From Alphaproteobacteria bacterium (GTDB lineage Bacteria > Pseudomonadota > Alphaproteobacteria > SHVP01), in contig VGES01000008.1 in NCBI GenBank assembly GCA_016869765.1, forward strand, positions 1 to 64,000: DNA of 64,000 bases. Reading direction: 5' to 3'. How positions within the stretch are numbered: the stretch's first letter is position 1; each line of letters starts with the position of its first letter. The notes under the pieces are model-generated. The model saw nothing but the letters and a program-made list of their open reading frames with translations, was not told where the DNA came from and searched no databases. Shown here one piece after another: positions 61,333 to 64,000 of the stretch. The position numbers were made by a program, and so were the translations under genes.

Positions 61333-61743
61333 TCAGAGCACCTTGCTCTTGTCGCGATAGCTCTTGAACTCGACGAAGTTCCCGGAGGGATCCTTCAGGA
61401 ACATATTGCCGACTTCGCCAATGCCCTTGTGGGTCTTGATGTTTGGTTTGATGCGGAACTTGACCCTCTTGCGCTCCAGGCGTCGGCGTAACGCATGCCA
61501 TTCGTCCCAGTCGAGAATCCAGCCGAAGTGCTTGTACGGTTCGACCTCGGGGTCGTCCTTGCTCTTTTCGACCATCTTCGGCGCCTGGATCGCCACCAAC
61601 TGGGCGCCCCAGAAGTTGATCACCGCGTAATTCTTTCGGCTCGTGTCGCGGCGTTCCTTGCAGCCGAGGGTATTGACATAGAACTGACGCGCCTTGGCGA
61701 TATCGTCGACGGCGATGGCGACGTGAAAGATCGGATTTGGCAT
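61333..61743 (-). CDS. VOC family protein
   Basis: A 136-residue glyoxalase-fold protein: IFHVAIAVDDIAKARQFYVNTLGC opens module one (His ligand candidate) and MFLKDPSGNFVEFKSY closes module two (Glu ligand), matching a metal-binding VOC enzyme. The ATG at 61743 follows GGGAGGTGG. The middle (EVEPYKHFGWILDWDEWHALRRRL) resembles bleomycin-resistance or dioxygenase members. Substrate unknown. Not closely similar to the VOC pair at the left end. Confidence 0.9.
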   Translation of the reverse strand: MPNPIFHVAIAVDDIAKARQFYVNTLGCKERRDTSRKNYAVINFWGAQLVAIQAPKMVEKSKDDPEVEPYKHFGWILDWDEWHALRRRLERKRVKFRIKPNIKTHKGIGEVGNMFLKDPSGNFVEFKSYRDKSKVL

Positions 61744-61815
61744 GGCCACCTCCCTGGTTGGGCCAACTTCAGGGTAGGGAGGGGGGTGGGGCGACGCAAG
61801 CGCGCCCGCGCCGGG

Positions 61816-62463
61816 CTACAGGCCCAATTCGGGAAACAGCTCTGCCGTCCCGTCCCAGATCATTTTGAGCGAGACGTAGGCGATCAATATGACGCCGACA
61901 TAGGCGATCCAGCGGTGGCGTTCGAGCAGGCGGGCGATGAAAACCGCGGCAACCCCCATTAGCGCGACCGAAAGCCCGAGGCCGATCATCAAGATATAGG
62001 GGTGGTCGCGCGCGACTCCGGCGACGGCCAGAACATTGTCGAGAGACATCGAGACGTCGGCCGCCACGATCTGCATCGCCGCCTGGCGGAAGGTCTTTGG
62101 CGGCGCTTTGACCGGTTCACCCTCGAGGGCGGCCTCGCCGACTTTTTCTTCATCGTGGGCGCCCGCCCGCAGTTCGCGCCAGAGCTTCCAAGTCACCCAC
62201 AGCAAGAGGACCCCACCGGCCAACACCAGGGCGCCACCGCCATAGTACAGCAGCTGGGTCGTGAACAGCGCGAAGACGATGCGCAGCACCGTGGCGGCGA
62301 TGATGCCGATCAGGATGAAGCGACCGCGTTGCTCCTTCGGCAAACCCGCGGCTGCGACACCCACGGCCACCGCGTTGTCGCCGGCGAGAACGATGTCGAT
62401 CAGGATGACCGAGCCAAGCGCCCAAAGTTCATCAAGTAGTTCGCCGGAGAACATCGCGTTCAC
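61816..62463 (-). CDS. TerC family integral membrane protein
   Basis: A 215-residue protein with about seven TM helices and both TerC signatures: LIDIVLAGDNAVAVG near the N-terminus and VAADVSMSLDNVLAVAGVA in the middle, whose Asp/Asn residues bind metal in relatives. Short YjbE/YkoY-type TerC proteins are linked to manganese export or metalation of exported proteins. It is intact, unlike the longer terC relative at 45356. Divergent from the nitrile hydratase-type operon (113 bases). Confidence 0.88.
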   Translation of the reverse strand: MNAMFSGELLDELWALGSVILIDIVLAGDNAVAVGVAAAGLPKEQRGRFILIGIIAATVLRIVFALFTTQLLYYGGGALVLAGGVLLLWVTWKLWRELRAGAHDEEKVGEAALEGEPVKAPPKTFRQAAMQIVAADVSMSLDNVLAVAGVARDHPYILMIGLGLSVALMGVAAVFIARLLERHRWIAYVGVILIAYVSLKMIWDGTAELFPELGL

Positions 62464-62538
62464 GAATGGAGGGTCGCCTCTGCGCGGCCGAGAACGTGCC
62501 TGACTTGGATGGTCGGCGCAACGACTGTTTTGGGTGGT

Positions 62539-62569
62539 TTGACCTCGGCCCTTGAGTTGTCTTGTATAA
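62539..62569 (+). promoter_or_regulatory. Promoter for a leaderless nitrile hydratase-type operon
   Basis: A perfect -10 hexamer TATAAT (62565-62570) is preceded by TTGACC at 62539, although the 20-base spacing is long. From the -10 there are only six bases (AGTCCT) to the ATG at 62577, putting the expected transcription start on or next to the A of ATG. No Shine-Dalgarno precedes that ATG. This fits a leaderless mRNA. The long spacer could mean an activator is needed. Confidence 0.65.
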
Positions 62570-62576
62570 TAGTCCT

Positions 62577-62879
62577 ATGCCCGGTCCTCATGACGTTGGC
62601 GGCAAGGATTTCGGTCCGATCGACCGCCAAGATCACCAGCGCACGGCCTTCGACACCCATGTCGACGTGTTACAGCAGCTCATGGGCGGAGGCGGCGCGC
62701 GGCTCTATCGCGTCGATGAACTGCGACGCTGCATCGAGTCGCTGGCACCCGCCGACTACCACCGGTTCTCCTACTACCAGAAATGGTTGACGGCGATGCG
62801 AACGTTGCTCCTGGAAAAAGGCCTCTTCTCGCGACAGGAGTTGGATCGCAGGCTCGAACACATGCGGCGGCAGTCATGA
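62577..62879 (+). CDS. Nitrile hydratase beta-subunit N-terminal-like protein
   Basis: A 100-residue protein (MPGPHDVGGKDFGPI start) matching the N-terminal half of nitrile hydratase beta subunits, including the helix segment YYQKWLTAMRTLLLEKGLFSRQELDRRL. In thiocyanate hydrolase and toyocamycin-type nitrile hydratase this region is a separate subunit, as here. Start is the ATG at 62577 with no ribosome site, directly behind a -10 box. Its stop overlaps the next gene's start (ATGA), so subunits are made in concert. Confidence 0.87.
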   Translation: MPGPHDVGGKDFGPIDRQDHQRTAFDTHVDVLQQLMGGGGARLYRVDELRRCIESLAPADYHRFSYYQKWLTAMRTLLLEKGLFSRQELDRRLEHMRRQS

Positions 62880-63154
62880 ACCTGTCGATCGGCGATCGCG
62901 TGCGGGTTCGCGCCGGCGACCCACCGGGACACATTCGGACGCCGTATTACCTTCGCGGCAAAGAGGGTGTAATCGTCGCGCGTTGGGGCGAGTTCCGAAA
63001 CCCCGAGGAACTGGCCTACGGCAAGCAGGGGCTGCCCAAGCGGACGCTGTTCTTGGTGCGTTTTCGTCAGTGCGACGTGTGGCCCGACTTCATCGGCGGA
63101 GCGCATGACACCGTAAGCGCCGACATTTATGACCATTGGCTCGAGCAGGCGTAG
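62876..63154 (+). CDS. Nitrile hydratase beta-subunit C-terminal-like protein
   Basis: A 92-residue SH3-like barrel protein (SIGDRVRVRAGDPPGHIRTPYYLRGKEGVI), the C-terminal half of nitrile hydratase beta. It contributes to the active-site wall and the Arg contacts with oxidised Cys of the metal subunit. Translationally coupled to the previous gene by a four-base overlap. With its neighbours it gives a three-gene split-beta arrangement. Confidence 0.9.
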   Translation: MNLSIGDRVRVRAGDPPGHIRTPYYLRGKEGVIVARWGEFRNPEELAYGKQGLPKRTLFLVRFRQCDVWPDFIGGAHDTVSADIYDHWLEQA

Positions 63155-63164
63155 GAGGGACCCC

Positions 63165-63818
63165 ATGCCAGGCCACGACCACCATGATCACGATCATGAC
63201 CACGACCACGCCCTGGACCCGCATGCAGCCGTGACCGAGGAGGAACGGCGTGAGTTCGAGTTGCTCGAACGCTCGATCCGCGAATTGCTGATCGAAAAAG
63301 GGGTCTTCACCGCCGACGACGTGCGGCGCGTCATCGACCGCGCGGCAACGCGTACGCCGGCCGATGGGGCTCGCGTGATCGCGCGCGCCTGGACGGATCC
63401 CGCCTACAAGAAGCGTCTGATCGAGACGCCCAAGGAGGCCGTCGAGGAGCTTGGCTACGATCTCGGACCGGCCGAGCCGAATCTCGTCGTGCTCGAACAG
63501 AGCGAGCGTGTTCATTACGTCGTCGTTTGCACCCTGTGCTCGTGTTATCCGCGCGTGCTGTTGGGGCCGCCGCCCGATTGGTACAAAAGCGTCGCCTACC
63601 GCGCGCGCGTCGTGCGCGATCCACGTGGTGTGCTGCAGGAGTTCGGCACCGAAATCGCGTCAGACGTCGAGGTTCGGGTCGTCGATTCGACGGCCGACAT
63701 GCGCTACCTCGTCTTGCCGCAGCGTCCGAAAGGAAGCGAACGCCTGAACGAATCGGAGCTGTCCCGCCTCGTGACGCGCGACTGCATGGTCGGCGTTACG
63801 TTCCCCGATCGTCCCTAG
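63165..63818 (+). CDS. Nitrile hydratase alpha / thiocyanate hydrolase gamma-like metal subunit with His-rich N-terminus
   Basis: A 217-residue metal subunit. The active-site loop VCTLCSCYPR (C122, C125, C127) is the cobalt-type claw; C125 and C127 are the residues oxidised to sulfinate/sulfenate in the family. The N-terminus PGHDHHDHDHDHDHALDPH is unusually His/Asp-rich and may bind or store cobalt during maturation; His-rich stretches are known near this domain in a fused choanoflagellate enzyme. ATG behind AGGAGGG. It hydrates a nitrile or hydrolyses thiocyanate; the substrate cannot be settled here. Confidence 0.92.
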   Translation: MPGHDHHDHDHDHDHALDPHAAVTEEERREFELLERSIRELLIEKGVFTADDVRRVIDRAATRTPADGARVIARAWTDPAYKKRLIETPKEAVEELGYDLGPAEPNLVVLEQSERVHYVVVCTLCSCYPRVLLGPPPDWYKSVAYRARVVRDPRGVLQEFGTEIASDVEVRVVDSTADMRYLVLPQRPKGSERLNESELSRLVTRDCMVGVTFPDRP

Positions 63819-63828
63819 GGAACCCCCG

Positions 63829-64000
63829 ATGACGAGCAAACTGGTTCGGGTGACGACCGGCGACGGCCACCCGATGGACGCGTTCGTCTCCGCCGCGGGC
63901 ACCGGCTCGGCGCCGGGAGTGGTCATTCTGCACGAGATCTTCGGTGTCACCGATTTCATCCGTTCGCGGCTGCCGTTCTTCAATGATCGTGGCTATACCG
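63829..64000 (+). CDS. Dienelactone hydrolase family protein (partial, cut by window end)
   Basis: The first 57 codons of an alpha/beta hydrolase: MTSKLVRVTTGDGHPMDAFVS and GVVILHEIFGVTDFIRSRL. The HEIFG motif and spacing match dienelactone hydrolase-like proteins, which use a Cys or Ser nucleophile further along, outside the window. It starts ten bases after the nitrile hydratase alpha-type gene and may be part of that operon. Confidence 0.85.
   Translation, partial: MTSKLVRVTTGDGHPMDAFVSAAGTGSAPGVVILHEIFGVTDFIRSRLPFFNDRGYT

Follow-up and report, generated by a model that had tools for sequence, protein, structure and literature searches.

The window, by which we mean the whole 64,000-nucleotide stretch of DNA analysed here, carries three consecutive genes that most likely encode a three-subunit, cobalt-type nitrile hydratase (NHase) which matures without a separate activator (we put the probability of this reading at roughly 0.78). 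The locus is a well-conserved further case of a known enzyme type, otherwise ordinary, and not a new thiocyanate enzyme. Its layout, with the N-terminal and C-terminal halves of the beta subunit encoded separately and followed by the alpha gene (betaN-betaC-alpha), is common in bacteria, and an enzyme arranged in this way is already known in purified form from a Streptomyces.

The three-gene operon and its conserved parts

The first gene, betaN (62577..62879, + strand; 100 aa), encodes the AnhD-like N-terminal half of an NHase beta subunit (PF21006, 72 bits) and is followed by betaC (62876..63154, +; 92 aa) for the AnhE-like, SH3-like C-terminal half (PF02211, 64.7 bits). The third gene, alpha (63165..63818, +; 217 aa), encodes the metal-binding subunit of the cobalt type (PF02979, 252.5 bits). 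All three reading frames are intact and open at these coordinates, and all three Pfam scores lie far over their cut-offs. The ATG of betaC overlaps the TGA of betaN as ATGA. Among approximately 106 betaN-betaC-alpha loci the overlap was −4 in 66 and −8 in 19, and because these overlaps recur across the loci, coupling of betaN and betaC is a conserved trait. Coupled translation would be expected to supply the two halves in equal amounts.

The alpha subunit contains the cobalt ligand motif CTLCSC at residues 122-127 (63528..63545, +), identified in the sequence and in PDB alignments and present in 106 of 107 betaN-betaC-alpha loci, thiocyanate hydrolases (SCNases) included. By homology to NHases, this loop probably binds cobalt, and its cysteines would be oxidised. 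Each beta half carries a conserved arginine: R50 of betaN lies in the motif DELRR, accompanied by SYYxxW, and R21 of betaC lies in GHIR. The betaN column is Arg in 99% of the split and 100% of the canonical and SCNase homologues, and the betaC column in 100% of the split loci. From known NHase structures we take the two columns to be the active-site arginines (beta Arg52 and Arg157 in Pseudonocardia numbering); by the same homology, one arginine from each half would complete the active site. The split beta subunit, the coupled genes and the cobalt-type motif claimed in the sequence-only reading are thus borne out by the reading frames, the Pfam matches and CTLCSC, and the predicted product is a heteromeric Co(III) enzyme of alpha, betaN and betaC that would convert nitriles to amides.

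A TATAAT lies a few bases 5′ of the betaN ATG (window 62565-62576), and the transcript may be leaderless. No −35 matching this TATAAT was detected by a consensus scan, and a promoter and terminator scan of 62400-62700 gave nothing above chance.

Relation to thiocyanate hydrolases and to known nitrile hydratases

Three-subunit thiocyanate hydrolases of the scnB-scnA-scnC type, which convert thiocyanate to carbonyl sulfide and ammonia, have a gene order identical to that of the window locus. The enzyme of Thiobacillus thioparus (PDB 2dd4) likewise has a beta subunit split in this order, the CTLCSC motif and an HD tract in the gamma subunit, and its gamma subunit is the best single PDB match of the window alpha (2.2e-59), with cobalt-type NHases nearly equal. 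We nevertheless rejected this identity on the family cut-off, the operon comparison and the tree tests described below, and consider it very improbable. The window alpha scored 206.5 with the SCNase gamma equivalog TIGR03887 and did not reach its cut-off of 291.45. The NHase alpha equivalog TIGR01323 was not reached either, with 235.1 for the window alpha and 247.3 for the alpha of a second locus in the same genome against 249.85, a curated annotation threshold that carries no biochemical definition; scores slightly below it are as expected of a divergent clade. The products of betaN and betaC matched NHase beta far better than SCNase.

For comparison of the operons we used nine loci over the TIGR03887 cut-off, found among 369 genomes from a different proteobacterial class. 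In the SCNase loci inspected, betaN was 143-148 aa and betaC 122-128 aa long, and downstream of gamma lay a P15K-like gene and an ABC transporter. Relative to these loci, the window locus has no beta extensions and no P15K or ABC transporter genes; longer beta halves, a downstream P15K activator and an ABC transporter likewise set the T. thioparus system apart from it, as does the substrate. The neighbourhood of the window locus also points to aromatic catabolism and not to sulfur metabolism. In a tree of 94 alpha sequences, all SCNases including that of T. thioparus formed one clade (100/96), and the window alpha lay outside it, grouping with relatives from its own family among other split loci. 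Forcing the window clade together with the SCNases was rejected by the AU test (p 0.0002). A single group of the window clade and the canonical NHase clade was also rejected (p 0.012).

Some loci in the comparison departed from the common motif. Two mycobacterial loci with fused beta (L040, L263), sister to the SCNases in the alpha tree, have CALCSC in place of CTLCSC, and two NHase alpha genes with fused beta and no adjacent activator (L077, L168) have CTQCSC.

For the gene order, which the sequence-only reading had matched to a three-subunit thiocyanate hydrolase or a toyocamycin-type NHase, the best fit is anhD-anhE-anhA of ScNHase from Streptomyces canus CGMCC 13662. ScNHase was purified and is active although its genome contains no activator; it incorporates cobalt directly if conditions are reducing, and AnhD, the N-terminal half of beta, acts in it as a metal and self-subunit-swapping chaperone (PMC7329996). 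It is the known system closest in design to the window locus, sharing gene order, split beta, cobalt type and the lack of an activator. Its subunits have masses of 10.41, 11.35 and 21.33 kDa (PMC7329996), which fit the masses predicted for the Streptomyces split loci where starts were clear (10.3-10.7, 10.9-11.4 and 21.0-21.5 kDa), and we infer that these loci are ScNHase orthologues. Unlike the window locus, the Streptomyces loci that fit ScNHase have no His tract, and their alpha subunits group with the canonical NHases (100/98), apart from the window alpha.

Canonical cobalt-type NHases (alpha-beta-activator or beta-alpha-activator) resemble the window enzyme in their folds, metal motif and both beta arginines, and many have a His tract, but their beta is usually fused and they come with a P14K/NhlE-type activator. 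The toyocamycin NHase ToyJKL of Streptomyces rimosus also has three subunits, and its alpha is described as maturing alone (Nelp 2014, as cited in PMC7329996). The genes around the window locus are catabolic and do not belong to pyrrolopyrimidine biosynthesis. We also considered whether a Streptomyces-like locus (L259/L311) was a toyocamycin cluster and discarded the idea, as no such genes occur around that locus.

Activator, His/Asp tract and maturation

It had been noted that no activator gene appears before the window ends, and this was confirmed: the next gene, starting at 63830, belongs to the dienelactone-hydrolase family. The contig extends 33 kb further and contains no activator past the window edge. 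In the window genome, which is 99.6% complete, searches with PF21006 and TIGR03889, which leave activators of other folds undetectable, found no activator over the TIGR03889 cut-off. The same was true of all nine genomes G000-G008 (the window genome and eight alpha-bearing members of the family), in which TIGR03889 matched weakly, for the most part to betaN itself, or not at all. Among 60 relatives TIGR03889 was exceeded in 15, all of them with an alpha-first canonical locus. In fused-beta genomes PF21006 recovered betaN and activators, but in the split genomes tested it recovered a single betaN only.

To place this result we assembled 185 loci by searching genomes with models for NHase or SCNase, and added the two loci of the window genome. 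NHase alpha was present in 103 of 289 genomes of the class sample, and betaN-betaC-alpha was the most frequent single layout in the 185-locus set. With counts restricted to loci with flanks of at least 500 bp and SCNases left out of the split group, an activator was adjacent to none of 68 betaN-betaC-alpha loci compared with 55 of 70 fused-beta loci. Fourteen Streptomyces loci were likewise split as betaN-betaC-alpha, with no activator within ~1.5 kb.

A general rule that split beta means no activator at first appeared perfect and then had to be narrowed to the betaN-betaC-alpha layout. Eleven truly split loci in the canonical clade, with the order alpha-betaN-betaC-activator, keep their activator (L063, L106, L115, L117, L131, L133, L209, L231, L232, L233 and L237). 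Because betaN and betaC are separate reading frames in these loci too, beta was split on more than one occasion, and fission alone does not remove the need for an activator; SCNase with its P15K says the same. Another arrangement was seen in family f26, where betaN is fused to alpha in one reading frame with a His tract between them (L082, L190, L273); the fetched stretches contained no betaC.

The window alpha begins with MPGHDHHDHDHDHDHALD, which includes the His/Asp tract HDHHDHDHDHDH (63174..63209, +). Its codons are mixed (CAC/CAT and GAC/GAT), and the tract is therefore not a slipped DNA repeat. Similar tracts occur in T. thioparus SCNase gamma and in many NHases. We scored a tract as at least four His in 20 residues and left out loci found partly through the peptide HDHHDHDH. 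On this count it was present in 62 of 71 split loci and 40 of 72 alpha-first loci (Fisher p 3e-5, a value that ignores kinship), in 4 of 18 beta-first loci with an activator, and in 2 of 9 SCNases.

The sequence-only reading had proposed that the tract could store cobalt within the enzyme itself and so stand in for the activator. Its enrichment in split over alpha-first loci, the latter mostly with an activator, agrees with this proposal, as do the His stretches known as metal-chaperone features of CobW and UreG proteins (PMC2770081). However, most tract-bearing alpha-first loci also have an activator, T. thioparus SCNase has both, and 13 of the 14 Streptomyces betaN-betaC-alpha loci have neither a tract nor an adjacent activator. 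In a eukaryotic NHase, moreover, a (His)17 linker was reported to be unnecessary for metal incorporation (PMC7193024). Since the tract is common beside activators and missing from nearly all Streptomyces split loci, it is not confined to activator-free enzymes, nor do these enzymes require it. We rejected activator replacement as a general explanation and hold it to be quite unlikely for the window locus; a general role in cobalt binding or metal gathering is possible.

Maturation could alternatively depend on an activator that was not recognised because it is encoded elsewhere, for example a betaN-like/cupin protein or, in one genus, a second betaN beside terC. The window genome encodes a protein in which a betaN-like domain is joined to a cupin (C1:112253-112921; L277:4254-4922, − strand); this protein lacks the catalytic Arg and could act in trans. 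In G003, G006 and G008 its two parts are encoded by separate reading frames that lie side by side. Most split-NHase members of the family have such a betaN-like orphan, and the known cobalt activators are themselves betaN-like. The orphan, on the other hand, adjoins an isochorismatase-family hydrolase and MBL-fold hydrolases and not NHase, bears no activator signature (no TIGR03889 match), and was not found in most other split-locus genomes, and we regard such an activator as unlikely. The extra copy of betaN, which lies beyond terC, was seen in two genomes of one genus (L306:8540-8824 and L310:2950-3241), in one of which it is broken across frames.

Our preferred reading is thus activator-free maturation of an NHase. 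By analogy with ScNHase, cobalt would enter alpha directly under reducing conditions with no dedicated activator, and betaN may serve as the metal and self-subunit-swapping chaperone. The His/Asp tract may contribute to metal gathering, although not as a replacement of the activator. Because the ScNHase-like Streptomyces clade groups with the canonical NHases, away from the window alpha, this mechanism may not carry over to the window locus, and we offer the transfer as a hypothesis.

Gene neighbourhood and wider meaning

The divergent neighbour of betaN encodes a membrane protein of the TerC/YjbE type (61816..62463, −; PF03741, 146 bits; TIGR03717, 193.8 over a cut-off of 134.8). The gene suspected of a link to metal supply is thus real, and it points away from betaN in the window as well as in G002, G003 and G008. 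It is not adjacent to the second locus, nor to the locus in three other relatives; since the divergent pairing is therefore not constant, a metal-supply link of TerC is possible at most.

Beyond terC lies a gene for a glyoxalase/extradiol-fold protein (61333..61749, −; PF00903), which was found in six of seven relatives examined. On the other side, the window ends within the start of the dienelactone-hydrolase family gene (63830..64000, +), identified by PF01738 on L003:1430-2134 and by its conservation. This is the first gene of a downstream SDR/Rieske-oxygenase cluster; after it come genes for an SDR, for two large subunits and one small subunit of Rieske oxygenase, for a reductase and for a Rieske ferredoxin. 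In relatives from the family the locus is flanked, with varying completeness, by glyoxalase-fold, DUF427 and PEP-mutase/isocitrate-lyase type genes on one side, and on the other by genes for dienelactone hydrolase, SDR and Rieske oxygenase. Because this neighbourhood of Rieske oxygenase with its small subunit and reductase, dienelactone hydrolase, SDR and PEP-mutase/isocitrate-lyase type genes is conserved, it suggests a role in the catabolism of organic, perhaps aromatic, nitriles. No amidase gene lies next to the window locus. The second betaN-betaC-alpha locus of the genome (C41:2873-4084) also has an HD tract, and near it are a gene of the CN-hydrolase family (amidase/nitrilase type) and a peptide-type ABC transporter.

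More broadly, and tentatively, betaN-betaC-alpha NHases outside Streptomyces may represent a large, mostly uncharacterised set in Alphaproteobacteria, Chloroflexota and Actinomycetota whose free betaN subunit also serves as maturation chaperone. The known activators might then be relatives of a once-free betaN that is dispensable or indispensable depending on the lineage. Split loci that keep an activator, set against those that have none, offer a natural test of when activators are dispensable. NHases are used as catalysts in industry, and their activators limit how well they can be expressed; activator-less enzymes encoded in single operons, if available in large numbers, would serve heterologous expression.
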